A DNA stretch of 64,000 nt. It comes from Candidatus Gastranaerophilales bacterium. GTDB taxonomy: Bacteria; Cyanobacteriota; Vampirovibrionia; Gastranaerophilales; Gastranaerophilaceae. Position numbers and translations under genes: made by a program. A model generated the notes under the pieces. That model saw nothing but the letters and a program-made list of their open reading frames with translations. It was not told where the DNA came from and searched no databases. Positions 7,045 to 36,199 of this stretch are shown here, one piece after another (within the stretch, counting starts at the first letter, position 1; the number at the start of each line of letters is the position of its first letter). The stretch is taken from contig CALVEB010000008.1 in the NCBI GenBank assembly GCA_944326465.1, forward strand, positions 1-64,000. The letters run 5' to 3'.

Positions 7045-7049
7045 AGATG

Positions 7050-7180: not shown

Positions 7181-7182
7181 GC

Positions 7183-7211: not shown

Positions 7212-7217
7212 TCTTTT

Positions 7218-8012: not shown

Positions 8013-8093
8013 TTTTACAAAAATTAACTTTTCAAATTTACAGATGAGATTTATAATAGTAACGAAAAGAAGATTTTGGGAAACGGGATTAAT

Positions 8094-8717
8094 ATGCAAG
8101 GATATACTTTTGAGCTTATAACAGGGCCGATGAGCTGCGGCAAAACAGAAGAATTATTACGACGGGTAAGACGTTGTATTATTGCTAAAAAGAAGGTGAA
8201 GGTCATTTCTCCGGATATTGATACACGCTCAAAAGGTGATTATATTGAATCACGTAATGGTTTATGGCTTGATGCTATAAAAGTTAAACATTCTATTCAG
8301 ATAATGAGTGTTGTGAAACCTGATGATGAAGTTGTTGCGATTGACGAATTGCAGTTTTTTGACAGCAATATAGTAAAAGTTATATCAAAATTAATGGATG
8401 AAGGAAAACGTGTTATCGGCACCGGGCTTGAACTGGATTTTAAATGCGAACCGTTTGGCAGCATGCCGGAATTGATGTGTATAGCAACAAAAGTTGATAA
8501 ATTACATGCGGTTTGCATGAAATGCGGCTGTGACCACGCAACAAGAACGCAGAGGCTTATTGACGGAAAACCGGCTGATAAAAATTCACCGCTTATTATG
8601 ATAGGCGGCGATGAAACTTATGAAGCCAGATGTGTTAAATGTTATGAATTGCCTGATGCACAGCACGAAAAACAAAAACGCGGCTTAAAACTTTTGAATT
8701 TTGAACACAAGTTTTAA
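8094..8717 (+). CDS. tdk: Thymidine kinase (type II)
   Basis: Phosphorylates thymidine to dTMP in pyrimidine salvage. The P-loop GPMSCGKTEELL is near the N-terminus, followed by KVKVISPDIDTR, the Walker B-like VVAIDELQFFD, and GTGLELDFKCEPFGSMPEL of the thymidine-binding region. The zinc-binding site shows two CxxC pairs (CMKC and CVKC) as in type II kinases. The length is 207 residues. The start ATG 8094 follows a GGGA motif by 6 bases; an in-frame TTG at 8076 is less likely. Confidence 0.93.
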   Translation: MQGYTFELITGPMSCGKTEELLRRVRRCIIAKKKVKVISPDIDTRSKGDYIESRNGLWLDAIKVKHSIQIMSVVKPDDEVVAIDELQFFDSNIVKVISKLMDEGKRVIGTGLELDFKCEPFGSMPELMCIATKVDKLHAVCMKCGCDHATRTQRLIDGKPADKNSPLIMIGGDETYEARCVKCYELPDAQHEKQKRGLKLLNFEHKF

Positions 8718-8852
8718 CTTTCACGGATACATATAATTGTTTTTGTCGTGTTGATTATTTTTTTTTAATTTCATCCATTTATATGGTTGATTTTTTTTAA
8801 AACATCATTAATATAAAAACAGGCAGGTAGTAAACAAGAAGGATATATTATT

Positions 8853-9404
8853 ATGGGAAGTTCAAATTTATTTACCGGCATATATGCAGGTCTGACAAAT
8901 ACTTATGCTCAACTGGCAGCGCAGAATCCGGATGGCTTAACTCTTGAAGGGATTTCAGAGGCAAGAACTAATCAGGATAATTTGTACTCTCTGAACCAAA
9001 CTTTCGCTTCATATTTGCAAACAAACTTTTCTAATATAGATAAAGACGGTGACGGTATAATCTCCGCTGAAGAAATGACCAACTTAACAAATATGATGAG
9101 TTCACAAGGGCTTACAAAAGCTGAATTAAGTCAGTTGTATGCATCAGGCGCAAGCGGCCTTTCTTCAAGTACAATTAATGAAATTTTGGAACACTTTGAC
9201 GATATGGACACAAACCACGACGGCAGAATTACGCAGGAAGAAATCTCTGCATATACCGTAAATTCTGCAAGACAGGAAAAAGTTGATGAATATGCTCATA
9301 AAGCTGCAACTAATATGTCTGTGTTTTATGGTAGTGAATCATCTGACACATCCGGTACCTATAGCATGCTTAGCTATAGATACAAAACAAATAGTAACTC
9401 ATAG
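8853..9404 (+). CDS. EF-hand calcium-binding protein
   Basis: A 183-residue protein with two canonical EF-hand loops: DKDGDGIISAEE (about residues 60-71) and DTNHDGRITQEE (about 118-129). Each has acidic residues at positions 1, 3, 5 and 12. The first 50 residues (MGSSNLFTGIYAGLTNTYAQ...) are not recognised, and no signal peptide is seen. Bacterial EF-hand proteins may buffer or sense calcium. AAGGA lies 13 bases before the ATG. It is a single gene with its own terminator. Confidence 0.8.
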   Translation: MGSSNLFTGIYAGLTNTYAQLAAQNPDGLTLEGISEARTNQDNLYSLNQTFASYLQTNFSNIDKDGDGIISAEEMTNLTNMMSSQGLTKAELSQLYASGASGLSSSTINEILEHFDDMDTNHDGRITQEEISAYTVNSARQEKVDEYAHKAATNMSVFYGSESSDTSGTYSMLSYRYKTNSNS

Positions 9405-9451
9405 TACACACTTAGTAACAAGCGCTGTGATGCGCGTGGAAAAGGGAATTG

Positions 9452-9480
9452 AAGCTTGCCGCGGGGCAGGCTTTTTGTTT
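9452..9480 (+). terminator. Terminator after the EF-hand gene
   Basis: AAGCTTGCC pairs with GGCAGGCTT (one G-T pair), followed by TTTTTGTTTT. Confidence 0.8.
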
Positions 9481-9513
9481 TCTATGGTATTTAAAATACA
9501 CAATGATACAAAC

Positions 9514-9541
9514 ATGACAAAAGATTATTCCATGATATAAT
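9514..9541 (+). promoter_or_regulatory. dnaG-rpoD promoter, leaderless type
   Basis: ATGACA at 9514-9519, a 16-base spacer, and TATAAT at 9536-9541. The dnaG ATG (9548) is six bases beyond the -10 and has no Shine-Dalgarno. Confidence 0.6.
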
Positions 9542-9547
9542 TTTATT

Positions 9548-11437
9548 ATGGCCGATACATTAGAAGAACTTGTTCAACAGATAAAAGAAAGACTTAACAT
9601 AGTCGATGTAGTTTCCGAAAAGGTTATTTTGAAAAAAAACGGAAACCATTACTGGGGTTTATGTCCGTTCCATAAAGAAAAAACGCCTTCATTCAGTGTT
9701 AACCCGCGGCTTGGTATTTATAAGTGTTTTGGCTGCGGAGCCGGCGGCGATGCGCTTAGCTTTATTATGAAAACCGAAAACCGCGATTTTATGGACGTCA
9801 TAGTAGATCTTGCCGAACAGTTCGGGCTCGAAGTTCCGCTTAAAAAGAAAAAACTCGTCTCTAAAGAACTTAAAGACCAGATGATAAGCGCATGCCAGAA
9901 AGCCGCTGAATACTACAATACATATCTTCTTCAGGATAAAAGCACTGAAACTCTTAAAGTAATGGAATATCTCGCAAATCGCGGGATTACAAAAGATATT
10001 ATACAAAAATATTCCCTCGGACTTGCACCTAAAACATACAAAAGTCTTTATGAGCTTTTAAGAGCAAAATTCCCTGATGAAGTTATGGAAAAAGCCGGCC
10101 TGATTATCCCGTCAAAAACCGATAACGGATATATTGACAGGTTTAGAAACAGAATTATTATTCCGATTGTAAATGAATACGGTGAAAATGTTGCGTTCGG
10201 CGCGCGCGCCATTGAACCCGATCAGATGCCGAAATATCTTAACTCATCAGATTCTTTGATTTACAATAAAAGTAAGTTATTATTCGGGCTTTACACTGCA
10301 AAAGAAGCTATTAAAGAGCAGGACAGTGTAATTTTAATGGAAGGTTATTTTGATGTAATTTCCGCACAGGCGCACGGGATTGAAAACGCTGTTGCAACTT
10401 GCGGAACAGCGCTTACGCCTGACCATATCAAGCTTTTATCGCGTTACTTAAAGTCCAGAAAAATCTATCTTTCTTTTGATACGGATTCAGCGGGTCAAAA
10501 GGCTACTAACCGTAATGCAGAGCTTTTGCGAGAAGCTTTTCAGGGACTCGGGAACATAAAACAGTTTGACGAAAGCTACATTTCCACAACAGATGACCGT
10601 TATGCCTGCGAAATACGCGTAATTGCGCCGCCGGAGGGTAAAGATCCCGATGAATTTATCCGCTCTGTCGGGGCTGAAAGTTACAGGCAATATATGGAAA
10701 ATGCTCCGCTATTGATTGATTTCCAGATAAACAGTCTGCTTAAACATAAAAACGAGATTAAAACCCCGACCGACAAAACACGGTTTGTAAAAGAATTAAT
10801 TCCTATTCTGGAAGAAATAAACAATGATATTATACAGTCCGAATATATTAAAATGGTTGCCGGAACTCTTAATATCAATGAAGATGCGCTTTACCGCGAA
10901 GTCAGAAAAGCAAAAAGGCAAAATACAATTATAGATTCTGATGTCACAAAAATTGTTAAGAAAAATTTATCAATTTCAGAAAAAGCGCAAAAAAATTTGT
11001 TGAGCGTTTTTCTAGTAACCGATTGCAATTTCACCTTTCAACAAATTAACGAAATGATTGGTGACACCCCGTTTACGGATGAAATGTTAATAAATGTAAA
11101 ATCTACAATTGACAAATCAATCAACTCCGTAAATAATGTTAAAGAATTGATAGAAAAACTCTACACAGCTTTTCTTGAAAATCCGGAAATACAAAGCATT
11201 ATAACCGATTTGATAAGTATTTCCGAAACCTTCAGCCATCTGGATGACAAAGATTTCCGGAACGTAATTCAGGAAAACATAAACAAAATAATACAGTGTC
11301 AGAAGGATGAAGAAAAAGAAAAAATGCGTCATTTATATAAAAGTGCAAATGACAACGAAACTGAAGCCCTTAAAATACAAATACAACTCAGAGATAAGAT
11401 AAATAACAGATTAAAATTGGAGAAAATGAATGACTAA
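9548..11437 (+). CDS. dnaG: DNA primase DnaG
   Basis: Makes RNA primers at the replication fork. The CHC2 zinc finger is at about residues 39-70 ([11 protein letters not shown] ... [10 protein letters not shown]). The catalytic core includes [15 protein letters not shown] and GRAI-like FGARAIEP, then the TOPRIM domain with MEGYFDVI and [11 protein letters not shown]. The C-terminal helicase-binding region is divergent, as usual. Length is 629 residues. Its stop overlaps the start of rpoD by 8 bases, giving a core of the classical macromolecular-synthesis operon (here without rpsU). Confidence 0.97.
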
Positions 11438-18818: not shown

Positions 18819-19172
18819 TTATGCAGATTTTAAGTGAATTTTATATCCTAAACCGTTTAATAATTTTAATGTTGTACTAATTTTTGGTTGAACTTTGCCA
18901 TTAAGAATATCTGACAAGTTACTCCTATCCATGTCCAAATCTCTTGCCAATGCCGAAATTGTACCACGCCCACGAGCTTTTACAACATGTTGTAAAGAAC
19001 GAATAAATGCATTTATATTTCCATCTTTTGCAAATTCTTCAAGTGAAGTTTCCAGATAAATTCTCTGGTAATCTTTATCCTGTAGCTTTTTATTCATATA
19101 ATCTTCATGGCTAAGTGTGTTAGCAATAACTTTTTCCATATCTAAATTAAATTCTTCTGCAAAATCTGTCAT
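18819..19172 (-). CDS. HTH antitoxin (HI1420/TIGR02684-like addiction module antidote)
   Basis: A 117-residue antitoxin of the HI1420 type. It has EFNLDMEKVIANTLSHEDYM, the family phrase YLETSLEEFAKDGNINAFIRSLQHVVKARG, then an HTH (ISALARDLDMDRSNLSDILNG) and a final LNGLGYKIHLKSA. It should bind and neutralise the toxin encoded upstream and repress the operon. The gene overlaps the toxin by 4 bases. The same family recurs at 55744-56049 and as a fragment at 56868-57164. Confidence 0.88.
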   Translation of the reverse strand: MTDFAEEFNLDMEKVIANTLSHEDYMNKKLQDKDYQRIYLETSLEEFAKDGNINAFIRSLQHVVKARGRGTISALARDLDMDRSNLSDILNGKVQPKISTTLKLLNGLGYKIHLKSA

Positions 19173-19513
19173 TTTGAGTTCCTTTCAATAAAGTCTTTGA
19201 GATATTTTTCTGCTTGTTTAATAACCCTGTTTTGGTTGCCTTTATCACTTCCTGCGACAATTATTATTACAAAATTTGTAAGATCTTTGTAATAAATTCT
19301 ATAGCCCTTACCAACAAAAAGTCTTAATTCTGATAATAAACTATTAGATAATTTCCGGTGATCGCCATATAAACCATCCATTAAACGTTCTATTCTATTA
19401 TCAATAATTGACTTATGCTTGTTGTCTAAGGTATTTATCCATTCATCAAAAGGACAACGTCCGTCAACAGTTTTATAATATATAATTTGTTTTAAGTGTT
19501 CATTTTCTGACAT
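19169..19513 (-). CDS. RelE/ParE-superfamily toxin (HI1419/TIGR02683-like)
   Basis: A 114-residue addiction-module killer protein. Family marks are GRCPFDEWINTLDNKHKSIID, RLMDGLYGDHRKLSNSLLSELRLFVGKGYRIYY and FVIIIVAGSDKGNQNRVIKQAEKYL. Members act as mRNA interferases of the RelE fold. The toxin gene is first and the antitoxin second, the reverse of relBE but usual for this family. The promoter with an overlapping inverted repeat lies just upstream. A few bases of AGGT lie before the ATG. Confidence 0.88.
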   Translation of the reverse strand: MSENEHLKQIIYYKTVDGRCPFDEWINTLDNKHKSIIDNRIERLMDGLYGDHRKLSNSLLSELRLFVGKGYRIYYKDLTNFVIIIVAGSDKGNQNRVIKQAEKYLKDFIERNSK

Positions 19514-21407: not shown

Positions 21408-24400
21408 ATGAGCAATTTTGAGTTCTTAAAAAATGAATATCCTGAATTAGCTGAACTTGGAGCGATAGCAGAGGAGTTAATAGACACTGACGCTGCATCT
21501 TGTCTTACAAAATTGCGTTTAATTGCAGAATATATCGCAAAAGATATTTATTTTAGATATTTCCACGAAAAGTCTTATGAAAAACAAATAGATCTTTTAA
21601 AAGAATTAGAACCCTATATTGATTCTAAATATATGGATGTGTTTCATATTATAAGAAAAAAGGGGAATTTAGCAACTCATGCAAATGTTGGGAGTAAAGA
21701 AAATGCACATATTCTTCTAAAATATGCTTGGGCGTTATGTGTTTGGCATTATGTAACTAACTGTGGTGGAGATAGCTCTCTTATCAAACCTTATGAAAGA
21801 CCTGTAAGTAGAAAACTTTTACTTGAAAAAGAGCTTGAGGAAGCTAAAAAAAGAAGTGCTGAACTTGAAGCAGAACTGAAAGTTAAAGAAGAGCAGTTAA
21901 GTAAAGTAACAGTTTCATCTAAAGAAGAATTTATAAATAATCAAAACGAAAATAGAGAAACGACTGATAGACTTGGTGATTTAACTGAAACTCAAACAAG
22001 AAACTATATCATTGATGAAATGCTTATTGAAGCTGGTTGGAACATCAAAAAAGTTGAAAATTTTAATAAAGAAATCCAAGAATATGATACAGAAGAAGTC
22101 AAACGTGAAGTTGCAGTAAGCAATTTGCCAAATACTCCTTCCGGAAAAGGTTATATTGATTATGCTTTATATGATGCAACAGGTAAAATTATTGCAATTA
22201 TAGAAGCTAAAAAAACTAGGAGAGATCCAAAAGAAGGTAAAACACAAGCTTTCTATTATGCAAATTCTGTTGAAATGGAAACTGGTTTTAGACCACTAAT
22301 ATTCTATACAAACGGTTTTGAGACTTATTTCTGGGATGATGTTAATTATTCTCCAAGACGCATTTATGGAATGTTTTCTAAAGATGATATTGAGACAAGA
22401 CTTTTCCAAAGACAAAACCGTATGCCGTTAGAAAACGTTGAAATTGATACATCAATAACAAACAGAGATTATCAAATTTCTGCTATCAGAAAGACGTATG
22501 AAGCTTTTAGCGTAGGACAAAGAAAAGCACTTATTGTAATGGCAACAGGAACAGGTAAAACCAGAACTGCAATGTCAATAATTAAAGGCTTAGTAAATGC
22601 TAATTGGGTTAAAAGAATTCTATTTTTAGTTGATAGAGATGAATTAAGGAAACAAGCTGATAGTGCTTTTAACAAACATTTAAACTCATTATCAAGAGTT
22701 CTATTGAATTCTGAAACTAGAGGCAATATGAATTCAAAAGTCTATATTGCAACTTATCCTGCAATGCAAAAGGCTTATCAACTATATACACCAGGATTTT
22801 TTGATTTAATAATCGCAGATGAATCTCACCGTTCAATTTATAATGTGTATGGCGAAATCTTCAAATATTTTGATGCTTTCCAAATCGGTTTAACAGCAAC
22901 ACCTGTTGATTATATATCAAGAAACACATTCTCAATGTTTGACACTGAAGATGGAAACCCTACTTTCAGCTACGAACTTGATGATGCGATTAAGGAAAAA
23001 TATCTTGTGCCTTATAAAGTTCAAAAAGTTCAAACTCAGTTTCTTGAAAGAGGTATCAAATATTCTGACTTAAGTCAAAAACAGAAACAGGAACTGGCTG
23101 AGCAAGTCGAAGATCCTGAAAAATTTGATTTTGAAAGTAGTGAACTTGAATCTCAAATAACAAATAAAGATACCAATAGAAAAATAATAAAGAACCTTAT
23201 GGATAATGGGCTAAGAGATTCTAACGGTAGACTAGGTAAAACAATAATTTTTGCAAGAAGCCATAAACACGGTGAAATTCTTGAAGATTTATTTAATCAA
23301 ATGTACCCTGAATATAAGGGAAAATATGCAAGACTAATTGATTCACACGATCCTAATGCATCGCTTTTACTTGATGATTTTAAAGGAGAAGAACAAGAGA
23401 ATAATATCAATATTGCGATTTCTGTTTCTATGCTAGATACAGGTGTTGACGTCCCTGAGATTTTGAACCTTGCATTTGCCAAGCCTATTTATTCAAAAGT
23501 TAAATTTTGGCAGATGATAGGCAGAGGTACAAGACTTTGTGAAAACTTATTTGGTCCTGGCAAAGATAAAGAAGGTTTTGTAATTTTTGATCATTACTCT
23601 AATTTTGAATTCTTTGGAGAAAATCCGGAAGGTTATGTTCCAAAAGAACAGCTATCCTTATATGAAAGACTCTTTATGTCGAGGATTTCTCTAGCAGTAA
23701 CTGCAAAAGAATTAGGCGATGAAAAGATTCTGAATAAGACCATTGAACAGTTAAAAAATGATATAAAAACACTGCCTAAAAAATCAGTTGATGTTCAAGA
23801 ACATGCAATGAAACTTGATGAAATCTTAAAAACTGATTATTATTGGCAAGACTTGGATGATGATTTTTTACATGTTCTTGATACTATTGTAAGACCTTTG
23901 ATGAAAAGACATCAAACAACATTTTCGCAAGATAGAGCAATGCAGTTTGAAATTAATGTAATTCAATTGGAAGTGTTGGAGCTTGAAAGGTTAATTCTTC
24001 AACAAAGACAAATTGAAACAACGCAACAAGATAAAAAAATAGAACTTGTAAAAAATAAAATAAGAAAAACCGTTTTCCACCTAAGAGAAACTATTAACAA
24101 GGTCAAAGAAAAAACTGAGACGATAAACAAAGTTAAATCTCAAAATTTTGGTACACCTTTTAATTTTGATGAAATGGAAACTATCAAAGATGAACTAGCT
24201 CCGATTATGCAGTATAGTCAAAGAAGTGCATTGGATGATGATATTATAGAAATTGATATTACTGACGATGTCGAGATTAATGAAGAACTTCAACTTAATC
24301 TTTTTGCAGCGTTTGGCGAAGGCTTTAAATATAATATAGAACAATTCTTGAATAAAATAGCGAGTGAAAATATAGTTCTTCAAAAAATCAAAAGAGGGCA

Positions 24401-24785
24401 AAAAACAACAGAACAAGATATTCAATCACTTGTTTCAATTGTTCTTGAACAAAACCCTCATTTTACATTGAAGCAGTTGGAAAAATTATACCCGGATAAA
24501 GCGCAGGATATTGATTTGCTAATCCGTTCAATTATTGGCGTTGACGAAAATGAAGTTCATTCAAGGATAAATAATTTTATTGAAAAACATACAACACTTA
24601 CATCTGTACAATTACAATGCCTAAAATTAATTGAAAACCAGTTAAAAGCTAATAATTACTTTAATTTCAGTTGTTTATATGAGCAACCATTTACAAGATT
24701 AGGTTATGATATCTTTACGGAAGAAGAGCTAAACGAGCTAATGCAAGCATTAGATGGTTATGTAGTAAAACAACAAGTTGGTTAA
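21408..24785 (+). CDS. hsdR: Type I restriction endonuclease, R (motor/nuclease) subunit
   Basis: A 1125-residue HsdR. The N-terminus (about 1-125) is a DUF4145-like helical domain. A short coiled coil leads to the PD-(D/E)xK nuclease (GYIDYALYDATGKIIAIIEAK, about residues 246-267). The SF2 motor has ATGTGKT (about 381), DESH (about 472), GLTATP, and QMIGRGTR. The C-terminal helical region (from about 870) should bind the methyltransferase. It cuts unmodified foreign DNA after ATP-driven translocation. GGGG is placed 5-6 bases before the ATG. hsdM starts 3 bases after its stop. Confidence 0.96.
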   Translation: MSNFEFLKNEYPELAELGAIAEELIDTDAASCLTKLRLIAEYIAKDIYFRYFHEKSYEKQIDLLKELEPYIDSKYMDVFHIIRKKGNLATHANVGSKENAHILLKYAWALCVWHYVTNCGGDSSLIKPYERPVSRKLLLEKELEEAKKRSAELEAELKVKEEQLSKVTVSSKEEFINNQNENRETTDRLGDLTETQTRNYIIDEMLIEAGWNIKKVENFNKEIQEYDTEEVKREVAVSNLPNTPSGKGYIDYALYDATGKIIAIIEAKKTRRDPKEGKTQAFYYANSVEMETGFRPLIFYTNGFETYFWDDVNYSPRRIYGMFSKDDIETRLFQRQNRMPLENVEIDTSITNRDYQISAIRKTYEAFSVGQRKALIVMATGTGKTRTAMSIIKGLVNANWVKRILFLVDRDELRKQADSAFNKHLNSLSRVLLNSETRGNMNSKVYIATYPAMQKAYQLYTPGFFDLIIADESHRSIYNVYGEIFKYFDAFQIGLTATPVDYISRNTFSMFDTEDGNPTFSYELDDAIKEKYLVPYKVQKVQTQFLERGIKYSDLSQKQKQELAEQVEDPEKFDFESSELESQITNKDTNRKIIKNLMDNGLRDSNGRLGKTIIFARSHKHGEILEDLFNQMYPEYKGKYARLIDSHDPNASLLLDDFKGEEQENNINIAISVSMLDTGVDVPEILNLAFAKPIYSKVKFWQMIGRGTRLCENLFGPGKDKEGFVIFDHYSNFEFFGENPEGYVPKEQLSLYERLFMSRISLAVTAKELGDEKILNKTIEQLKNDIKTLPKKSVDVQEHAMKLDEILKTDYYWQDLDDDFLHVLDTIVRPLMKRHQTTFSQDRAMQFEINVIQLEVLELERLILQQRQIETTQQDKKIELVKNKIRKTVFHLRETINKVKEKTETINKVKSQNFGTPFNFDEMETIKDELAPIMQYSQRSALDDDIIEIDITDDVEINEELQLNLFAAFGEGFKYNIEQFLNKIASENIVLQKIKRGQKTTEQDIQSLVSIVLEQNPHFTLKQLEKLYPDKAQDIDLLIRSIIGVDENEVHSRINNFIEKHTTLTSVQLQCLKLIENQLKANNYFNFSCLYEQPFTRLGYDIFTEEELNELMQALDGYVVKQQVG

Positions 24786-24788
24786 GTT

Positions 24789-26246
24789 ATGACAGATAAA
24801 GAATTTAAAGCGATTATTGACGAATTATGGGACAAATTTTGGTCCTCAGGTATAAGTAACCCAATATCAGTGGTAGAACAAATGACCTACTTGATATTTT
24901 TTAAGATGTTTGAATCCCAAGAGGATTTAGAAGACAAAAAAGCAAAACATTTTGGCAAACCAAGAAAATCCTTTTTTGAAAATAGAGAAAACTTGAGATG
25001 GAGCAATTTCAAACAACTATCTGCTGATGAAATGCTAAAAACTTATCGCGAAAAAGTTTTTCCACTCTTAGGCGAAATCAATCCTGCACTACAAGATTCT
25101 GTTTGTTTAATTACAAAACCGTCACTACTTGATACCGCTGTTCAAACCCTTGATAAAATGGATTTTTCTGATGGAAATGACAGAAAAGGCGATATTTATG
25201 AATATATGCTGAATAAACTTGCAATAGCAGGACAAAATGGGCAGTTCAGAACTCCTCGCCATATTATCGAAATGATGGTAAAGCTGATGCAACCGACACC
25301 ACAAGACAAAATTTGCGATCCTGCATGTGGTACAGGCGGCTTTTTGTGCGGTGCTTACAGATATATTTTAGAACAAGGTACATCTGATGATTTTAAAGAA
25401 ATTTCTCCTATCTTTGGGGACCTTTTGAGTGATGAAGATAGAAAAAATATCGATGATAATGTCTTTTTCGGCAGAGAATTTGACCCGACAATGTATAAAA
25501 TTGGTCTTATGAATATGATTTTGCACAACATAAAACCTAAAAACATAAAACTGCAAGATTCTTTATCAAAAGACGCTGACGAAAAAGATAAATATACTCT
25601 GGTACTTGCTAATCCGCCTTTTACTGGCAATTTAGATGAAAAGGATGTATCAAATAAATTAACGACAATCGTAAAAACCAAAAAAACAGAACTTCTTTTT
25701 ATGGCAAAATTTATGCGAATGCTTGATATTGGGGGTAGAGCTGCCGTAATTATTCCGACGGGCGTTTTATCTACTGATTCAAAAGCTCATAAAACCTTGA
25801 GAGAAAAACTCATTGAACAAAATAGACTCGATGCAGTAATTTCTATGCCTTCAGGAGTTTTCAAACCCTATGCAGGTGTTGCAACCGCAGTTCTTATCTT
25901 TACTAAAGGTGAACCAACAAAATCAACCTGGTTCTACGAAATGCAAAACGATGGCTTTACCCTTGATGATAAAAGAAATGAAATCGAAGAAAACGATATT
26001 CCTGATATTCTTGCAAAATTTTCTGACAGAGAAGAATCTAAGAAGTCATTTAATGTATCTATAGAAGATTTGAGAGAAAATGAATACAATCTGCTCCCAT
26101 CAAGATACAAAAAAATAGAATATACTCCGCCAACTTTTGAGCACACACCGCTAGAGTATGTTCAAATTCTTTTGGACTCAGAAAGAAAATCAATCGAACT
26201 CCTTGAATCCCTAAAAGAAAAACTTGGAGGGAAACTAAATGTTTGA
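24789..26246 (+). CDS. hsdM: Type I restriction-modification methyltransferase subunit
   Basis: A 485-residue N6-adenine methyltransferase. An N-terminal HsdM helical domain is followed by GQFRTPRHIIEMMV, SAM motif I DPACGTGGFL (about 178-187), GREFDPTMYKIGLMN, and catalytic motif IV NPPF (about 276-279). It methylates the site chosen by HsdS. It overlaps hsdS by 8 bases. All key motifs are intact, in contrast to the methyltransferase-like gene two places downstream. Confidence 0.96.
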   Translation: MTDKEFKAIIDELWDKFWSSGISNPISVVEQMTYLIFFKMFESQEDLEDKKAKHFGKPRKSFFENRENLRWSNFKQLSADEMLKTYREKVFPLLGEINPALQDSVCLITKPSLLDTAVQTLDKMDFSDGNDRKGDIYEYMLNKLAIAGQNGQFRTPRHIIEMMVKLMQPTPQDKICDPACGTGGFLCGAYRYILEQGTSDDFKEISPIFGDLLSDEDRKNIDDNVFFGREFDPTMYKIGLMNMILHNIKPKNIKLQDSLSKDADEKDKYTLVLANPPFTGNLDEKDVSNKLTTIVKTKKTELLFMAKFMRMLDIGGRAAVIIPTGVLSTDSKAHKTLREKLIEQNRLDAVISMPSGVFKPYAGVATAVLIFTKGEPTKSTWFYEMQNDGFTLDDKRNEIEENDIPDILAKFSDREESKKSFNVSIEDLRENEYNLLPSRYKKIEYTPPTFEHTPLEYVQILLDSERKSIELLESLKEKLGGKLNV

Positions 26247-27492
26247 AAATATACCTAAACATTGGAAAAAGAAAAAAATAAAAGAACTTTGCGACTTTCA
26301 AAATGGATATGCTTTTAACAGTAATGATTATGTAAACGATGGCTTTCCTATTATTCGAATGAGTAATATTTCTGTTAATGGAGAACTTAATTTAAATACA
26401 AATAATACAAAATTTTTTCCAAAGGAAAATATTGATAAAGTTAAACAATACTTTTTAAAAGAAAACGATGTTATAATAGCAATGACTGATATGTCTAAAG
26501 AAATGGGTATAATAGGAAAAACTGCTATTATAGATAAATCAGATATATATTTGTTAAATCAACGAGTGGGTAAATTTATTATTAAGGATAATAAAGTTCT
26601 TAATTACAAATATTTACATGCCTACACAAATTCACCACTATTTATAAATTATGCAAGACAGCAATGTTCTGGTGGGGTTCAACTTAATTTATCAACTAAG
26701 GCGATAATGGAACATCAACTACTTTTACCTACATTAGAAGAGCAACAAGAGATAGTAGATGTTTTAGATGCAGCGAGTGAAATAATTCGTTTACGCACTG
26801 CCTGTATCGAAAGTGCCCAATCCCTCATCCCTGCCCTCTTCCAAGAGATGTTCGGAGACATTAATAATAATATTCATAGTTTACCAATATCAGAGATTAA
26901 ATCTTGTGTGGAAATAAATCCTACAAAGATCATTATGAATGACAATGATGATGTCACATTTTTAGGAATGAAAGATGTAACCGAAAATGGTCAAATGGAT
27001 TTATCAACAATAAAAAAATATGAGGAAGTAAAAAAAGGGTTTACAAGTTTTAAAAATGATGATGTTTTGTTGGCAAAAATTACTCCTTGTTTTGAAAATG
27101 GTAAAGCTGCAATAGCTAAAAACTTAGTAAATAATACAGGATTTGGTAGTACTGAGTTTTATGTTCTTAGACCTGAACAAAACAAGATTTTACCTGAATA
27201 TCTTTACTCAATAGTAAAATCTTCTCGTTTTTTAGAAATTGGGAAGTCTAATATGAAAGGTGCGGCAGGACAAAAACGATTAATAAAAGATTTTGTATCC
27301 AATTATAAATTTTTGTTGCCAGATATGCCACAACAAGAACTTTTTGCAACAAAAGCTCAAGAGATAGAGGCATATATAAAAATACAACAAGCTGAACTAG
27401 AAAATGCCAAAACCATGTTCCAATCCCTCCTCCACTATGCTTTTATGGGTAAGTTGACAGAAAATATAACTTTTGAGGTAAAAAATGAATAA
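26239..27492 (+). CDS. hsdS: Type I restriction-modification specificity subunit
   Basis: A 417-residue HsdS with two target recognition domains. TRD1 begins CDFQNGYAFNSNDYVNDGFP and TRD2 begins CVEINPTKIIMNDNDDVTFL. Each is followed by a conserved helical spacer (LPTLEEQQEIVDVLDAASEI; LPDMPQQELFATKAQEIEAY). It fixes the bipartite DNA sequence for both methylation and restriction. Overlaps of 8 bases at each end (hsdM before, methyltransferase-like gene after) tie the whole cassette together. No recombinase or second hsdS is adjacent. Confidence 0.95.
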   Translation: MFENIPKHWKKKKIKELCDFQNGYAFNSNDYVNDGFPIIRMSNISVNGELNLNTNNTKFFPKENIDKVKQYFLKENDVIIAMTDMSKEMGIIGKTAIIDKSDIYLLNQRVGKFIIKDNKVLNYKYLHAYTNSPLFINYARQQCSGGVQLNLSTKAIMEHQLLLPTLEEQQEIVDVLDAASEIIRLRTACIESAQSLIPALFQEMFGDINNNIHSLPISEIKSCVEINPTKIIMNDNDDVTFLGMKDVTENGQMDLSTIKKYEEVKKGFTSFKNDDVLLAKITPCFENGKAAIAKNLVNNTGFGSTEFYVLRPEQNKILPEYLYSIVKSSRFLEIGKSNMKGAAGQKRLIKDFVSNYKFLLPDMPQQELFATKAQEIEAYIKIQQAELENAKTMFQSLLHYAFMGKLTENITFEVKNE

Positions 27493-29464
27493 TAAGGCGA
27501 ACAACTTAATATTCAAACTTTTTGATGATGTAAAAAGATTTCAAAATAACATAGACGAATCTCTTGCAATAACGTTAGGATTAGTTTATCTGATATATAC
27601 AGACAAGGAATCTTTTTTAACAGCAAGCGGAATGCATGATCCCAATAATACATATCCATATATCGATGTTGTAGATTTTTATATGGATAATATTCGCAAT
27701 AGAATGGATCTTAAATTTGCCAATGAACAACTTGAAAGATACTTAGTTAATAATATAAAAAGTTATGAGGAATTTGCAACTTTTTCTAAAATAGACATAA
27801 AAAATGCAATAGAAAATTTGTTACAAGATAAAAGTCCGATGTTACAAGCCTCTTCAAGGCAAACTGATAGTTTTACTCAAAGAGTTATTACTCAAATTGC
27901 AAAGCTACTAAATTCTAAAGGTCCATACATTGATCTCGCTGTAGGTACTGGAAGTTTATTAAAAGATTTTGATGGAGAAGTTTGGGGAGATGATATCAAT
28001 CCTAAAATGGTAGTTATTGCCAGATGTTATTTGTATTTTTATTTAAATGATGTAACTTATGAAAGTTTAATAAATGATATTAGACTACAAGATAGTATAG
28101 AAACTTTTAATTATACAGGATATAAAAATGCTGTTATATTTTTTGATCCTCCAATGGGTGATTTTAGACTATATCCCAAAGATGAAAGATGGCAAAATAC
28201 AGAAATTTTCAATAAAAAACCAGTAAAATTACAAAGTGAAATTTTGTTTCTTATGAATTTTTTAGTTAATGCTAAAAATAATGATTATTTTATAGGATTA
28301 TTCCCCGAAAATATATTAAATAAAAATAGCTACGAATATAACAATATTCGAAAATACTTAATAGAACATTCTTTAATTTGCGTTATTAGAGTTTTAACAG
28401 GACATGTTTTATTGATTGGACAAAAAAAGTTAGATATCAAAAAATATCCGGACATTTCAGTTATTAGAATTCAACAGCTATTAAATTCTGAACAATTAGA
28501 CTTTATTGTTAAAGAAATAATAAAAGGTAAAGATATAAATTTTACCCCTTATTTCAGTATTAAACCAAGTGATTTTGGTACCATTATAAAAAATTATGAT
28601 AGTATTGAAAATTATAATAAAGACTTTAGAAGCATTACCTATGCAATATATAAACGAAATGACTTATTAAAAAATAATTTTGCAATAAATTTACCCGAAA
28701 AATTAACATATGAAGATTTGCATAAGAATAATAAAGAAACCCTTCAAGAACTCTTAAAAAAAATTAATGATAATGAAGAAGAGATTAAAATAAAAATACA
28801 GCAAATAAATGACACTGTTTCTCAAATACAAAGTAAAGAAGAAACACAATATAAATTTGAACCTTGGTTTAGTAATAATATAACAGATAAAATAAATAAT
28901 GTTTTATCTTATTTCTATTCAAAGTACTATTTAGATTTATTAACTGAAGATAATATTGAAAGTTGGTTTGATTTTCAAATAAGAGATAATGTAACGCCAG
29001 AAAAATTTACTAATTTGAAAATATTATTTGAAAGTCGACGTGTTAAATTGTTAAAAAATAAAGTAAAAATATATTTTGGAGAAAATAAAGAGAATTTACA
29101 AAAAGATATTAATTGGATGGAATTTTACAATTTATTTGATCCTCTCAAAGATAAAGATTTAAAATGTATATTTGAATTAACAAATAATGATAAGAATATA
29201 AAACTTATTTTTGAAAACCTTTGTCAATATTGGATGTTAGATCAAAATGAAGATAATACATTATTAAAACAAAAAGAATTTCCAATAAAAGAATTTACTC
29301 GATGTTTAAAAGTATTAGAAAATTTAGGATTAGTTATTTTTGATAAAAGGAAAGTTTATACTTCTGAACACGAACATTCTGAAATTGACCTATATAAAAG
29401 ATTTATTCCAAATATAAAATATATAGATGCTATAAGAATTGAGGAAGCACAAAATGTTCGATGA
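27485..29464 (+). CDS. Methyltransferase-fold protein with altered motifs
   Basis: A 659-residue protein. Residues 1-130 are helical; 148-160 form a SAM-like motif I (YIDLAVGTGSLL); the acidic GDDIN follows at 168-172. The catalytic position reads FFDPPMGDF (219-227), where N6-adenine methyltransferases have (N/D)PP(Y/F/W). The C-terminal half (from about 420) is a coiled-coil-rich, K/E-rich region ending in a possible winged-helix (CLKVLENLGLVIFDKRKVYT). It overlaps hsdS by 8 bases and the ATPase gene by 11. I suggest a divergent methyltransferase or a DNA/nucleotide-sensing pseudoenzyme partner of the ATPase. The gene is visibly more AT-rich than hsdR. Confidence 0.65.
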   Translation: MNNKANNLIFKLFDDVKRFQNNIDESLAITLGLVYLIYTDKESFLTASGMHDPNNTYPYIDVVDFYMDNIRNRMDLKFANEQLERYLVNNIKSYEEFATFSKIDIKNAIENLLQDKSPMLQASSRQTDSFTQRVITQIAKLLNSKGPYIDLAVGTGSLLKDFDGEVWGDDINPKMVVIARCYLYFYLNDVTYESLINDIRLQDSIETFNYTGYKNAVIFFDPPMGDFRLYPKDERWQNTEIFNKKPVKLQSEILFLMNFLVNAKNNDYFIGLFPENILNKNSYEYNNIRKYLIEHSLICVIRVLTGHVLLIGQKKLDIKKYPDISVIRIQQLLNSEQLDFIVKEIIKGKDINFTPYFSIKPSDFGTIIKNYDSIENYNKDFRSITYAIYKRNDLLKNNFAINLPEKLTYEDLHKNNKETLQELLKKINDNEEEIKIKIQQINDTVSQIQSKEETQYKFEPWFSNNITDKINNVLSYFYSKYYLDLLTEDNIESWFDFQIRDNVTPEKFTNLKILFESRRVKLLKNKVKIYFGENKENLQKDINWMEFYNLFDPLKDKDLKCIFELTNNDKNIKLIFENLCQYWMLDQNEDNTLLKQKEFPIKEFTRCLKVLENLGLVIFDKRKVYTSEHEHSEIDLYKRFIPNIKYIDAIRIEEAQNVR

Positions 29465-30830
29465 GTTATACATAAATGACTATTGTAATTTTAACACCTT
29501 TAGAATGATTTTTCCTATAAAGAAAAATACAAAAAATTGTGCAAATTTAAATTTAATAGTTGGGAAAAATGGCTCAGGTAAAAGTTCTTTATTAGATGCT
29601 CTATTTGAAATTGGAGAATACAATTTAAAGGATAATTTTGCTCAAGTTGATAACACTAGATTTGAATATAAAATAATTAAAGAAAACAAAATAATTAGTT
29701 CTAATTTAAAAATTAAAGGCAGTGAATTAATGCCAAAAGATGAAAAGAATGATTATTTTTGGGATGCAATCATTCGTTTGCATACAGGACATACTGCAAG
29801 ACAATATAATTCATATCGAAACAATATATATTCATTAACAACAAATACTACAAAGTGGGCCTTACTTGCATATATTACAAGTGGAATATGGCATTCATTA
29901 TATAAATGTACTATTGATGCAGCATTATGGGATAAACTACAAAATATAATATTTGGGGAAAATAACCATATAAAAATACAAATTATTTGGTTAGATATCA
30001 AAAAAGAACATGATTATGACGAAATAGACAATTCTGTAATAAGAGATATTAGAGAACCAGATGGTTATATATATATTGGAAACAAAATAACAAGATATTT
30101 TTGGAATTTAGAAAAACCAATTACTATAGAACCATTCGGGACTAATATTAAACAAAAAAAAATTAATCCATTGCCTATATTAGCAACTTTTTTAGATAAA
30201 ATAGATCCTATAAAAATATCCAAAGATTTAAACGGGAAATATATTGATACCGGATTTTTATACAGCAAAGGTGATTCTAATAAATTATATCCAGATTCAT
30301 TTTTAAGTGATGGGGAACATGGTTTTTTTACAAGATTTGCACTACTAATGCTTTTAAAAGAAGAAAATTTAAACTATCATAAACATTTTCTAATATTATT
30401 AGATGAACCAGAAACTCATTTTAATGAAAATTGGAAAACATCGTTTCTAAATCTTGTGTGTAAAATTTTTGAGAATACAAATCATGATATTTTTATTGCA
30501 ACGCACTCTGCAATGTTGGTTACAGATGCAAAAGAAGATGAAATTCATCGATTAGAGAATTTACCTTCGGGCATAGTGCACTATCCTGTGCCAATAAAAA
30601 CTTATGGGGCAAATATTATTGATATAGGACGTGCCTTATTTAAAATGGAGTCTGATGTTGGAGAACGGGTTAAAAGTGATATTCAGCAGGCAATGGATAA
30701 TAATGATAAAGAAAAATTAGAAGAATTAATCAGAGAAGTAGGCCCAGGAGAATGGCGTTGGAAAATAAGAAGTAAATTAAATCAATTAGAAAAAGCTGAT
30801 ATGTGCTGTAATTTTAAAACAAAAGGTTAA
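29454..30830 (+). CDS. AAA/ABC-type ATPase, Septu PtuA/OLD-like
   Basis: A 458-residue ATPase with an SMC/ABC-like head: Walker A VGKNGSGKSS (about 36-45), a signature-like LSDGEHGFFTR (about 284), Walker B FLILLDEPETHF (about 315), and an H-loop IFIATHSAML. This is the arrangement in PtuA, RloC and OLD-family defence ATPases; no Toprim domain is seen. The start ATG 29454 has GAGGAAG upstream; an earlier ATG at 29439 lacks one. An HNH nuclease gene follows 10 bases later, the Septu (PtuAB) order. Confidence 0.8.
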   Translation: MFDELYINDYCNFNTFRMIFPIKKNTKNCANLNLIVGKNGSGKSSLLDALFEIGEYNLKDNFAQVDNTRFEYKIIKENKIISSNLKIKGSELMPKDEKNDYFWDAIIRLHTGHTARQYNSYRNNIYSLTTNTTKWALLAYITSGIWHSLYKCTIDAALWDKLQNIIFGENNHIKIQIIWLDIKKEHDYDEIDNSVIRDIREPDGYIYIGNKITRYFWNLEKPITIEPFGTNIKQKKINPLPILATFLDKIDPIKISKDLNGKYIDTGFLYSKGDSNKLYPDSFLSDGEHGFFTRFALLMLLKEENLNYHKHFLILLDEPETHFNENWKTSFLNLVCKIFENTNHDIFIATHSAMLVTDAKEDEIHRLENLPSGIVHYPVPIKTYGANIIDIGRALFKMESDVGERVKSDIQQAMDNNDKEKLEELIREVGPGEWRWKIRSKLNQLEKADMCCNFKTKG

Positions 30831-30840
30831 TAGTTGGAAA

Positions 30841-31716
30841 ATGAAAAATAAAAATCTTTTTAAAAAAATTTTAGAACAAAGATTTTTTAAAATTCTAGGA
30901 ACCAGTATCCTAAAAAGCGACTATGAGCAATTTTTATGGACAGTAAAAGATATTTCAGAAGATTTAAAAACAAACATAATCAATAAATTTGATACAATGA
31001 CTTGTAATAGTTCTGAATTTAGAAGTAAATTTGGGCATTTGTCTTTTAAACAAGCATTTATAAAAGATTATTTTAATGGTACAACTCCAAGATGTTGTTT
31101 TTGTGGAAAACTTTTAGAAGAAGCACACAATAAATATAATGAAACATATATTATTGCAGATATTGAACATGTTTTTCCTAAAAGTAAATTTCCTCAATTT
31201 ACTTTACACATAGATAATTGGGTACCTTGTTGCAAAGAGTGTAATGAAATAATCAAAAAAGATGAATTTTTTCCTTCAGACCCAATACAAAATTTTAACA
31301 CTGTATTAGAAGATTTACACACAGATATTGATAATATGCATCCGCTTGAATTATGGAAATTATATACCATAAATTATGATGAAAACTTAAACATTAAAAT
31401 TAATAAAAATTGTAGCGAAGCTACAACAGAATTTTTAAGTTTTTATGGAATTGAATCTCGAATTAAAATAATGGCAGCACGTTGTTATGATATTTTACTC
31501 AATATAATTCGGCATTCAAATATTCGTTCTCCTGAATCTTTAGAACGATTGCTTGAAAATATGGCTTCAAGTAACTGGCATGAGATTAATGATGGCTATT
31601 CTTTAAATAATAGTCCACAAATCTGGCAAGAATTTATTGAAAATATTTTGTATGATGAATGTAAACTTATGGCTCTTTGGGACGAAGTAAAATCTATGAA
31701 TATGAGCATTTTTTAA
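30841..31716 (+). CDS. HNH endonuclease, Septu PtuB-like
   Basis: A 291-residue HNH nuclease. The zinc knuckle is CFCGK (C85-x2-C88) with CKECN (C131-x2-C134). The catalytic DIEHVFPKSKFP (H110) and DNWVPC (N126) complete the beta-beta-alpha-metal fold. About 80 helical residues precede it and about 140 follow. It would be the nuclease effector driven by the ATPase encoded immediately upstream. It is the last intact gene of the six-gene operon; a decayed CxxC gene starts one base after its stop. Confidence 0.8.
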   Translation: MKNKNLFKKILEQRFFKILGTSILKSDYEQFLWTVKDISEDLKTNIINKFDTMTCNSSEFRSKFGHLSFKQAFIKDYFNGTTPRCCFCGKLLEEAHNKYNETYIIADIEHVFPKSKFPQFTLHIDNWVPCCKECNEIIKKDEFFPSDPIQNFNTVLEDLHTDIDNMHPLELWKLYTINYDENLNIKINKNCSEATTEFLSFYGIESRIKIMAARCYDILLNIIRHSNIRSPESLERLLENMASSNWHEINDGYSLNNSPQIWQEFIENILYDECKLMALWDEVKSMNMSIF

Positions 31717-31717
31717 T

Positions 31718-32101
31718 ATGAAGGGAAAAAACGAAAAACAAATTGTAGGAATATGTAAATTCTGTGGACAGGAAAAGAAATTAATTAAAGCACACATAAT
31801 TCTAAGGCATTTTTACCTTAATTATAAAAATGAAACAATGCTGCAATAAATTCAAAAGCAGAAGATTTCTCAAATATAAACCTGGACAATATGAAGATAT
31901 CGCTTAAAAAATACTAAAAGTTGAAATTGAAAAAGATAACTTATTTAAAATATTAATATTCAAATTCCCTCGAAATATGGACAATAATTCTATAGCTCAT
32001 TTATCAAAAATAAAACTCAAGCACGAAGCATATTGTTTATGCATGGCAGGATATTATATTTATATTTTTATTAATGAAAAAAAATATTCCTTTCGATGTT
32101 A
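31718..32101 (+). pseudogene. Remnant of a CxxC zinc-knuckle gene
   Basis: ATG 31718 opens MKGKNEKQIVGICKFCGQEK, KLIKAHIILRHFY and stops early. Further downstream, in shifted frames, fragments such as KFKSRRFLKYKPGQYEDIA, KILKVEIEKDNLFKILIFKF and MAGYYIYIFINEKKYSF look like the rest of the same protein. The N-terminus matches the CxFCG...KAHIIP type found beside HNH and ATPase genes. Several stops and frame changes make it a clear pseudogene. It ends where the dgt fragment begins on the other strand. Confidence 0.6.
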
Positions 32102-32154
32102 TCAAATACTACGGAGAAATTTTTTTAAGAAAAGAAAATTTATATTTAAGATAC

Positions 32155-32565
32155 TTTCTACTGCATGACCAAAAGGCGTATGCCCTAAATCATGACCAAG
32201 AGAAATTGCTTCGATTAAGTTTTGATTGAGTCCTAAAGATGAAGCTACCGAACGTGATATCTGAGTAATTTCTAAAGTATGAGATAATCGATTCGTATAA
32301 TGATCTCCTTGGTTTGTCATGTACACTTGCGTTTTTTCCATTAATCTTTTAAACGCGAGTGAATAATAATAATCCTATCTTTGTCTCTTTCAAATTCGGT
32401 TCTTCTAGTACATGGTTTATAGTTTTCCATGTACAATCTAGTTGCATTGTTTGATTTTATTGCGTATTTGGCTAATGTATTTTCTTCGATTTTTTCTATA
32501 TTTTCACGAATTCTATTTATAGTTTTCTTTTGCATATAATTCTCATAATACTCACCATATAACAA
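32155..32565 (-). pseudogene. dgt: dGTPase (HD domain) fragment with frameshift
   Basis: The N-terminal part (32565-32343) reads NTLAKYAIKSN...[18 protein letters not shown], and the next frame reads [53 protein letters not shown]. In intact dGTPases these are continuous (HSRAFxRLxxKTQV). Four bases are missing at about 32350-32355. The gene then breaks off after the HD motif near 32155, so about two thirds of the protein is lost. Intact dGTPase hydrolyses dGTP to deoxyguanosine and triphosphate and can protect against phage. Confidence 0.75.
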
Positions 32566-33877: not shown

Positions 33878-34960
33878 TTATTCATTAATCCATTGGACTT
33901 CAATATTACCATTCATAGATATTTCATATTTGATATGATGTGTTGCATCTGGACAAGTTGTAATGGATGTACTTTTTAAAGCTATTTTACGAACTAAAAA
34001 CTCAGCATCCCCAAATACTGTTTTTTGACTTTTATCTTTTAATACTCTTATTTGGGTTGAATGTGTCATTATTTTTTCTAAAATTTCTGATTTAGGAATT
34101 CTGGATTTATTATATGGTGATATTATTATCTGGTAATCTTTACCCCAAATATCCCAAATCTCTTTATTATATGCCCCTCCACTTCCATGATGTGGTGCTT
34201 TAAGAAAAACTAAATTGCTTTTTAATAATGGATACCGTTCTTCTTTATATATTTCTTGCCAAGATTCGTTAGTTACATCTCCACCTAATAAAATTTTTAA
34301 ATCACCAAATTCAATGATTAAAGCTACTGAAATTATATTATGAACAGATGATTCTATTGAAAAATTACCAGATAAGCCATTATTTTTACACGCTTTATAC
34401 AAACACTCATTATATTTTTTACTATACTCATCAATGTCATTTGCACAAGGTGCAATACAAGTTATAGCTATATTTTCATCAAGCGTATTTAAACCATATA
34501 GTATTTTCCCTAAACATAGCTGTGCATCTATAGTTTTTATTAATTTTTTATTCTTTAAATCAGAAATTTTTTCAAATAATTTCAAAAGATATCCCGGTTT
34601 AGGTTTAGAAATATAAATATCTGTTGAATTCTTTAAGAATTTTTCATCAATTTGTTCAATAAGCTCTGAGAGACCTTTTAATCTCCCAAAATGAAACCGT
34701 CCTAATAAGTTAATTTGAATTTCATGTGCTTCACAATATGTTAGTAAATCTATTAAATAATGAGTGTGGTCATCATGAGGATGTGTCCATAACAAAAATT
34801 CAATTGAACTTAATTTGTTTTCTGATACATACAGATTAAACCATTTTAAAAAATCTTTATACCCAAAATCTACAATACCAATCTTACCATTAGGAAACTT
34901 TATAAAAATAGTTTCACCATTGCCATCTCCAAAAACCCTAATCACAAGATTAGATGTCAT
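33878..34960 (-). CDS. Metallo-beta-lactamase-fold hydrolase (ComEC C-domain-like)
   Basis: About 360 residues. MBL motifs are WTHPHDDHTHY (metal ligands, about residues 59-69), a LGGD motif (ILLGGDVTNES), and APHHGSGGAYN. This matches the ComEC/Rec2-like MBL group often found in defence islands; such enzymes may act on nucleic acids or cyclic nucleotides. ATG 34960 has GAGGAAAA upstream. It overlaps the preceding gene by 11 bases and is the last gene of a three-gene minus-strand operon. Confidence 0.75.
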   Translation of the reverse strand: MTSNLVIRVFGDGNGETIFIKFPNGKIGIVDFGYKDFLKWFNLYVSENKLSSIEFLLWTHPHDDHTHYLIDLLTYCEAHEIQINLLGRFHFGRLKGLSELIEQIDEKFLKNSTDIYISKPKPGYLLKLFEKISDLKNKKLIKTIDAQLCLGKILYGLNTLDENIAITCIAPCANDIDEYSKKYNECLYKACKNNGLSGNFSIESSVHNIISVALIIEFGDLKILLGGDVTNESWQEIYKEERYPLLKSNLVFLKAPHHGSGGAYNKEIWDIWGKDYQIIISPYNKSRIPKSEILEKIMTHSTQIRVLKDKSQKTVFGDAEFLVRKIALKSTSITTCPDATHHIKYEISMNGNIEVQWINE

Positions 34961-35369
34961 AGTTTTCCTCATATAAAGAAATCCTATTAGCAAATTTTCT
35001 ATCTTCAATTTTTTCTAGTAATGTTTCATTGTACTTTTCAAATTCAAAGGTCATATCATACTGTTTAAGTAAGATAAAATCATTTACTTTGATATCAAAT
35101 TCAAATTTATCAATGTTAAATTGATAAGCTTCCCCGATACCAGAATCGGTATTTTTAAAAACTATAGTTACAATATTATCATTAATTTCAGTAATTAAAC
35201 CTTTAAACTGTTCAACTAAATTCCTTTGTTCAATTATAATATTTTGCCAACCGATTTTTTCCTCTATTTGTTCATTAGTTGCTTTATATAAATATTCATT
35301 CATAGGGCTCTCAAACCAATGAGGAACTAAATCTATTTGAGATTGTATTTGTATATAATCTTTTAACAT
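34950..35369 (-). CDS. Unknown protein, middle gene of MBL cassette
   Basis: A 139-residue protein that I do not recognise. It has a charged helical N-terminus (MLKDYIQIQSQIDLVPHWFE) and a beta-rich middle (GLITEINDNIVTIVFKNT), which could be a small barrel. It ends in a helical KYNETLLEKIEDRKFANR. No membrane segment or signal is seen. Its stop overlaps the MBL gene, and it lies 14 bases from the TIGR04255-like gene, so all three are likely made together. Confidence 0.6.
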   Translation of the reverse strand: MLKDYIQIQSQIDLVPHWFESPMNEYLYKATNEQIEEKIGWQNIIIEQRNLVEQFKGLITEINDNIVTIVFKNTDSGIGEAYQFNIDKFEFDIKVNDFILLKQYDMTFEFEKYNETLLEKIEDRKFANRISLYEENYDI

Positions 35370-35383
35370 AATAAACCTCTATA

Positions 35384-36199
35384 TTATTTATTGTCAGAGA
35401 AAAATTTATCACCTAGCATATGCCTATACAAATTGTAAATAATTGTACTAAAATTATTTAAATCGTCTTCCATATGAATATTCAATTTACTTGGATTGTC
35501 TTTAAAAACTTGAAAATCGTAGATTAATGATTTAGACTTACCATCTGGATTTAAAGAGGAACCATTTCTAATAACTATTTTAGTTCCATCATTTTCTTGT
35601 GAAACAATTTCATTATAAAATCTGACAGGTTCTTCAATATCCAAACCATCATTATTAAGTAAATTAACTTCCTTTATATAATCGTTATTTAACTTATTTA
35701 ATGTATCAGCATCATAATTTACTTTATTAATCTTACGTACAAATAATGCTTTATTTTTAACAAAAATTTCTCGATTATATTCGCCTGCAACAAAAATCAA
35801 ACATTCGTATATTTTTTTAAAAGTTTTACTAAAATCTTTAAAATTAGAATAATTTGCATGTGGATTTATGCATTGAAAATCTAACATTTCGTTGTTTAGT
35901 ATTAGTTGAAATTTTCCATCTTCATCATAATATATATAATTTACAGAATTCTTTTCTTCTATTGAAACTTTATTCTTATTAAGACCTTCATTACTAATCT
36001 GTAACTTATGCTCTCGCATTGGACTTATTGTTCGTTCAGGAAATTCTGCGAAAATTTTATTATAAAAAGCCTGCTCAATACTATTTACGTTTGGATAAAC
36101 AAAATTCAATGCAATACCAACAAAATCTAGTGTATTAGTAGTATGTTGTTTTATATCCTCAATATTGTATTTTTTTAAAATTTCATATTTTATCGTCAT
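35384..36199 (-). CDS. TIGR04255-like sporadically distributed protein
   Basis: A 271-residue protein resembling the TIGR04255 family in layout. It has an early pairing of a core (TLDFVGIALNFVYPNV), FPERTISPMREHKLQIS, FQLILNNEMLDFQ, HANYSNFKDFSKTFKKIYEC, and a central FVRKINKVNYD where members have RYINRI/RYINxI. Function is unknown; the family is patchy and often near defence genes. The assignment is by pattern only. It is the first gene of the three-gene cassette; AAGGGC lies before its ATG. Confidence 0.5.
   Translation of the reverse strand: MTIKYEILKKYNIEDIKQHTTNTLDFVGIALNFVYPNVNSIEQAFYNKIFAEFPERTISPMREHKLQISNEGLNKNKVSIEEKNSVNYIYYDEDGKFQLILNNEMLDFQCINPHANYSNFKDFSKTFKKIYECLIFVAGEYNREIFVKNKALFVRKINKVNYDADTLNKLNNDYIKEVNLLNNDGLDIEEPVRFYNEIVSQENDGTKIVIRNGSSLNPDGKSKSLIYDFQVFKDNPSKLNIHMEDDLNNFSTIIYNLYRHMLGDKFFSDNK

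Follow-up and report, generated by a model that had tools for sequence, protein, structure and literature searches.

Gene content of the locus

The 64,000 nucleotide stretch analysed here (the window) is part of contig CALVEB010000008.1 in the 2.07 Mb genome of a Candidatus Gastranaerophilales bacterium (GenBank assembly GCA_944326465.1). It carries on the forward strand an operon of six genes whose order is conserved in the gut-dwelling Gastranaerophilales: hsdR, hsdM, hsdS, a degenerate M gene, a PtuA/TIGR04435-like ATPase gene and a PtuB-like HNH gene. The first three form a complete type I restriction set with strong family matches. hsdR (21408–24785) encodes a restriction/translocase subunit of 1125 aa (PADLOC REase_I, 7e-198; Pfam ResIII, 1e-37, and EcoEI_R_C, 3e-15), hsdM (24789–26246) a modification subunit of 485 aa with intact DPACGTGG and, as read in the sequence, intact NPPF (PADLOC MTase_I, 4e-157; Pfam N6_Mtase, 6e-67), and hsdS (26239–27492) a specificity subunit of 417 aa that matches Pfam Methylase_S in two stretches (2e-30). 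The fourth gene, here designated M-like, encodes a 659 aa protein. A sequence-only reading of this DNA had reported an open reading frame with a DPPM catalytic motif, a motif I of sequence DLAVGTGSLL and an acidic second motif, and all of these were recovered exactly at 27485–29464 on the forward strand; the type I operon upstream, the paralogy with HsdM and the existence of NPPF counterparts outside the order had escaped it. The M-like gene overlaps hsdS by 8 bases and the ATPase gene by 26 bases and is therefore a member of a tight operon.

The same reading had assigned the protein to a module that includes an ATPase and a nuclease, and this assignment is well supported. An ABC/OLD-type ATPase gene (29439–30830; TIGR04435, 4.5e-29, below its cut-off; PADLOC PtuA, 3e-20) is followed by a gene for an HNH nuclease with paired CxxC and H/N residues (30841–31716; PADLOC PtuB, 1.5e-12), an adjacent pair as in Septu / PtuAB. 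In the ATPase the Walker A motif, the SDGE signature and LLDEPET are all present and invariant among the loci, and its profile matches solved PtuA chains. C85, C88, D107, H110, N126, C131, C134 and N135 of the HNH protein are invariant in 9 loci, and the protein matches the TIGR02646 chain 9n69_F (1.7e-4). Curated cut-offs were missed, with 39, 11 and 102 bits for NF041760, NF041761 and TIGR04435 against 500, 150 and 300, respectively. TIGR04435 is the "restriction system-associated AAA family ATPase" family. Directly 3' of the HNH gene, a seventh gene is present in L010 (encoding 263 aa that include a CxxC...HIIPK motif), L011, L047, L048, L064 and L065; its broken remains are found at 31718–32084 of the window as pieces matching residues 1–42 and 140–207.

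Other loci of the window lie on the reverse strand. A probable toxin-antitoxin pair (18819–19513), composed of an HI1420-type antidote (Pfam, 1.3e-9) and a small upstream partner, is found shortly before the restriction operon. Downstream of the operon, fragments at 32102–32565 read like an HD-domain dGTPase and apparently belong to a broken gene. Three adjacent genes at 33878–36199 have no Pfam match, one of them reading like a metallo-beta-lactamase fold (THPHDDHTH), and are possibly another defence unit.

The M-like protein and its motif IV

No family library recognises the M-like protein (Pfam, NCBIfam, PADLOC), and direct look-ups in these libraries and among PDB sequences gave weak, mostly coiled-coil matches only (DUF1759, JetC, FliT, thiazole kinase), which were discarded. 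Comparison by hhalign of a 12-member M-like alignment with HsdM gave a collinear match over 268 columns (P 97.7, E 1.4e-12), in which FDPPM is aligned opposite NPPF of HsdM and the M-like consensus N-x-Y-x-I-x-M-P falls on NEYNLLPSRY. The AlphaFold2 model of the protein (mean pLDDT 72) was compared with solved structures by Foldseek, and the best matches were all HsdM, among them 3lkd (E 3.4e-11), PacII M1 and M2, and EcoR124I. By both the profile alignment and the solved folds, the M-like protein is thus an HsdM paralogue, to which a C-terminal domain of about 200 residues not present in HsdM has been added. The Pfam N6_Mtase profile has no match to the M-like proteins of the window, L009, L065, L108 and L133, whereas it does match their intact second M counterparts at 1e-28 to 1e-31.

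Motif I (residues 150–159, 27932–27961) is mostly intact as GTG, its first Gly being nearly invariant in 15 homologues, with erosion to GMG in L108 and to GTA in L011 and L067; in the protein of the window it is followed by an acidic motif, WGDDIN. The altered motif IV, FDPPMG (residues 220–225, 28142–28159), stands in the context IFFDPPMGD. The pattern of active HsdM / N6_Mtase enzymes at this place is (N/D/S)PP(Y/F/W), and all 15 readable M-like homologues depart from this with FDPP[L/I/M]. F-D-P-P is invariant in each of them although they are only 20–40% identical, and the next residue is Met in four (the window, L107, L108 and L133), Leu in nine and Ile in two. Hence Met itself is not fixed, as had been asked at the outset, while the aliphatic, non-aromatic character of the position is, and no homologue restores Phe, Tyr or Trp. 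Since F-D-P-P is invariant and the aliphatic/Met residues after it are written with different codons among the homologues, the departure is due neither to chance nor to sequencing error. The HsdM encoded beside the M-like gene in the same operon keeps NPPF in 10/10 cases checked. dN/dS values among M-like homologues are 0.17–0.61, so that the protein is maintained under purifying selection; conservation and dN/dS together rule out an artefact or a pseudogene. The M-like gene of L051 (10270–12121) is frameshifted just before motif IV, with the other five genes open, by either an assembly error or a real inactivation. Of the two original proposals, a pseudoenzyme or a new methyltransferase subclass, the former is well supported by conservation and synteny for a protein of an ATPase/nuclease module; that it senses SAM or DNA state, as was put forward with the pseudoenzyme, is possible.

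In lacking the aromatic residue while retaining a folded methylase body, the M-like protein resembles METTL14, which has EPPL and an inactive site (PMC5023411). PacII-type systems have two different M subunits with NPPF and NPPY, and the double change N285A/Y288A in PacII M2 strongly lowers its methylation (PMC9613975).

The C-terminal half had been described as a long coiled-coil, which overstated a single helix of about 30 residues (residues 420–449, 28742–28831). In the AlphaFold2 model this helix occupies the position of the C-terminal helix of HsdM, where the hhalign alignment reaches the end of HsdM; the helix at that position of HsdM pairs with HsdS in known enzymes. It is followed by about 200 residues of mixed helix and strand (28859–29461), absent from HsdM, for which the winged helix of the first description may hold, possibly in tandem. 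Modelled alone, this domain had a mean pLDDT of 69.5 and no significant match in a structure search of the PDB; the weak matches were mostly winged-helix proteins, a hint only that such a fold is suggested. The N-terminal region is variable across the family, and a homologue in L108 (6642–8708, reverse strand) has an N-terminal, zinc-ribbon-like CPVC...CPNC not found in the protein of the window.

Linkage, cassette diversity and relatives in other phyla

All six genes were found in the same order at 12 loci, one of which is L051 with its frameshifted M-like copy. A search of 383 genomes of the order with HsdM found a protein at least 52% identical in 14, and in 14/14 the M-like gene lies beside hsdS (three are cut by contig ends and one is frameshifted); it is absent from 6/6 informative loci where HsdM is at most 50% identical. 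Wherever the flank was readable, complete M-like genes were seen only together with this HsdRM clade. A weak match in genome G124 (L006, L117) was rejected as false, as it falls in an unrelated gene whose sequence resembles a sugar nucleotidyltransferase. The other ATPase-HNH loci of the order are mostly pairs with neither restriction genes nor an M-like gene (e.g. L053–L060, L062) and were set aside. The M-like protein as query had no match in phage and plasmid records. The first viral scans were empty, and a scan with the ATPase then found L133, an IMG/VR contig in which a complete six-gene system lies beside genes that read like a terminase, a ParB and a serine recombinase. From these neighbours, the system may travel with a prophage.

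The window, L010, L011, L048 and L050 encode HsdR proteins 96–98% identical and HsdM proteins 94–99% identical, beside M-like proteins of only 19–27% identity (one pair 79%) and ATPases of 33–46% (one pair 91%). Similarities of M-like protein and ATPase are correlated across 11 loci (Spearman 0.62–0.66, Mantel p 5e-4), a correlation explicable in part by physical neighbourhood alone. In the same 11 loci the methylase-like part of the M-like protein follows neither HsdM (Spearman –0.12) nor HsdS (also about –0.1), and the last 75 residues of the HNH protein track HsdM (0.89). By these patterns, the variable block starts at the M-like gene, ends inside the HNH gene and is set in a constant frame. 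For the pattern scan the HNH alignment was used, the multi-family alignment having proved too diverse. In the HNH protein (30841–31716 of the window) the last 75 residues are 79–97% identical among loci and the N-terminal part as little as 26%; the C-terminal part could either mark a boundary of recombination or serve in docking on the restriction complex. Near-identical HsdR and HsdM beside very different sensor-effector cassettes amount to natural swap experiments on what such systems sense.

Outside the order, plasmid pHAU02 of Herpetosiphon (Chloroflexota) carries hsdR, hsdM, hsdS, a second N-6 methylase gene, an ATPase gene and an HNH gene in the same order, which recurs in two genomes of cyanobacteria, L150 and L151, the latter with a broken ATPase. 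The second M of the Chloroflexota and cyanobacterial loci has an intact NPPFG and matches N6_Mtase at about 1e-30. Six-gene loci with such an intact second M (L150, 8635–10626; L151, 9405–11483; L118, 9101–10972) are possibly, to judge from their gene content, two-M restriction systems with an attached ATPase-HNH pair, of which no description was found in the literature searched. The Gastranaerophilales M-like clade aligns with the NPPFG proteins over the methylase core only (P 96, E 3.9e-9), with DPPMG on NPPFG, and the HNH proteins of the two kinds of loci align at P 97. Many other loci have hsdM, hsdS, ATPase and HNH genes without a second M. In the ATPase tree the degenerate clade is held together (100/100). 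A single origin of all systems bearing a second M is not supported by this tree (one clade, p-AU 0.019), and as the tree does not hold these systems together, it does not establish that the second M was gained only once; that the aromatic residue was "lost" follows from homology with HsdM, not from the ATPase tree. A cyanobacterial locus, L152, has an open reading frame of 1122 aa (6648–10016) in which an HsdS with two specificity stretches is fused to a TIGR04435/PtuA-type ATPase, with a PtuB-like HNH gene following it. This fusion argues that ATPases of this kind attach to the specificity subunit. The occurrence of intact and degenerate second M genes in one gene order makes the step from an enzyme to a possible sensor testable.

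Function of the M-like subunit and comparison with known systems

The M-like protein is a conserved, selected HsdM paralogue with a non-consensus motif IV, whose gene is linked both to a single type I system and to the genes of a PtuAB-like pair. The best reading is that of a non-catalytic subunit that links the restriction complex with a Septu/PrrC-like effector, the trigger and the target of the effector being those which we infer below. A probability of roughly 0.45 was given to its being a second, degenerate HsdM-type subunit in a type I system with a built-in PtuAB-like effector, acting as adaptor or sensor. Such a subunit would no longer methylate a flipped base and would dock on the restriction complex through its M-like body, its extra C-terminal domain holding the ATPase-HNH pair inactive. 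A phage that inhibits or evades the restriction enzyme, with a DNA mimic or some other anti-restriction protein for instance, would make the sensor change state, and the ATPase would then license the HNH nuclease to cut tRNA or DNA so that growth stops, as with PrrC, PARIS and Septu. More tentatively, the second M may have turned into a dedicated, fast-diversifying guard of the restriction complex that fires a PtuAB-type nuclease on inhibition by phage. There are precedents: PrrC is held in EcoprrI and released by Stp (PMC3874165, PMC12409349), PARIS is triggered by Ocr (PMC9122126), Ronin provides a coupled latent toxin (PMC12409349), and PtuAB acts on tRNA-Tyr, or is linked to its loss, in retron-Eco7 and a Septu system (PMC11555353, PMC13096335). 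Against the adaptor, HsdM proteins 94–99% identical stand beside M-like proteins that share as little as 19%, so that there is no clear sign of a tight and conserved M-M interface; most of motif I is retained, and SAM binding or weak catalysis is possible; and DPP with Leu or Met might act on an unusual substrate.

An M-like protein outside the restriction complex could serve as a decoy of HsdM, binding phage anti-restriction proteins aimed at HsdM or HsdS and directly triggering the ATPase-HNH pair. An HsdM-like body without the catalytic residue would suit this role, anti-restriction proteins are sensed by PARIS (PMC9122126) and Ronin (PMC12409349), and a cassette far more diverse than HsdR and HsdM is what a receptor for changing phage proteins should look like; however, recombination alone could produce that diversity, the HsdS-ATPase fusion of the relative points to physical attachment, and the linkage to one HsdRM clade is exclusive, which makes a free decoy rather doubtful. 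It is unlikely that the protein methylates by means of a relaxed motif IV, in an M1-M2-S enzyme like PacII where the second M would modify the other strand or another base. Two different M subunits do occur in PacII-type systems (PMC9613975), motif I and the acidic motif are preserved for the most part, and the cyanobacterial and Chloroflexota counterparts carry NPPF, but an aromatic residue is found in 0/15 homologues, some of them have an eroded motif I as well (GMG, GTA), and the Pfam methylase profile misses the M-like clade while finding the intact counterparts at about 1e-30; moreover, N285A/Y288A strongly lowers the activity of PacII M2 (PMC9613975) and METTL14, with EPPL in place of an aromatic motif, has an inactive site (PMC5023411).

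The M-like protein, ATPase and HNH nuclease might instead form an independent three-gene defence unit that senses SAM level or DNA state and was merely co-transferred with the restriction genes. Some phages destroy SAM, the retained motif I could allow its binding, and the M-like and ATPase genes are exchanged together, independently of HsdR and HsdM. Yet, where the flank is readable, no complete M-like gene was seen away from this HsdRM clade, and in its C-terminal part the HNH protein varies with HsdM rather than with the cassette, so that we regard such a unit as improbable. Least probable by far is a decaying relic of a second hsdM without function: the loss of the catalytic motif and the frameshift in L051 would agree with it, but the reading frame is open in all other complete copies, the genes overlap, dN/dS is well below 1 and F-D-P-P is invariant at 20–40% identity, and by this conservation it is largely excluded.

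A subunit tying the effector to the restriction complex remains our preferred reading, and the parts of the system are each of a known kind. Suicide modules attached to restriction systems are known from PrrC and Ronin, and PARIS is a known stand-alone sensor of anti-restriction proteins. An assembly of these kinds of parts in which a degenerate second M stands, throughout a clade, between HsdS and the effector pair was not found in the literature searched; there was likewise no described case of an HsdM paralogue lacking the catalytic residue between HsdS and a PtuAB-like effector (subscription papers were mostly outside this literature). For the change in motif IV, METTL3-METTL14 offers an analogy and no more, an active DPPW methylase standing beside a homologue that ends in Leu (EPPL) and is non-catalytic yet needed for the complex; these are eukaryotic RNA enzymes of another methylase class. 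EcoprrI-PrrC and Ronin likewise couple type I-like restriction or modification subunits to a latent toxin that is encoded in the same operon and acts when a phage counters restriction, a likeness drawn here only from gene linkage and the HsdS-ATPase fusion in a relative. PrrC differs in being a single protein placed in the operon and Ronin in having no restriction component, and for neither of them has a degenerate second M or a PtuAB-type pair been described. In PacII (R-M1-M2-S), as in the six-gene order of the 12 loci, two different HsdM-type proteins accompany one HsdS and one HsdR, and PacII M1 and M2 are among the closest solved folds to the M-like protein. However, PacII M1 (NPPF) and M2 (NPPY) are both active, whereas in the M-like protein the aromatic residue is missing and about 200 aa are added at the C-terminus, and the genes for the ATPase and the HNH nuclease come next. 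Septu and retron I-A PtuA-PtuB, like TIGR04435 ATPases with an HNH partner, share with the present loci an ATPase gene followed by an HNH gene, with matching profiles and solved PtuA chains. The pair described here scores below the curated cut-offs of TIGR04435 and PtuA, has no reverse transcriptase among its genes and, unlike that of Septu or retron I-A, is embedded in a type I operon with an M-like subunit before the ATPase.
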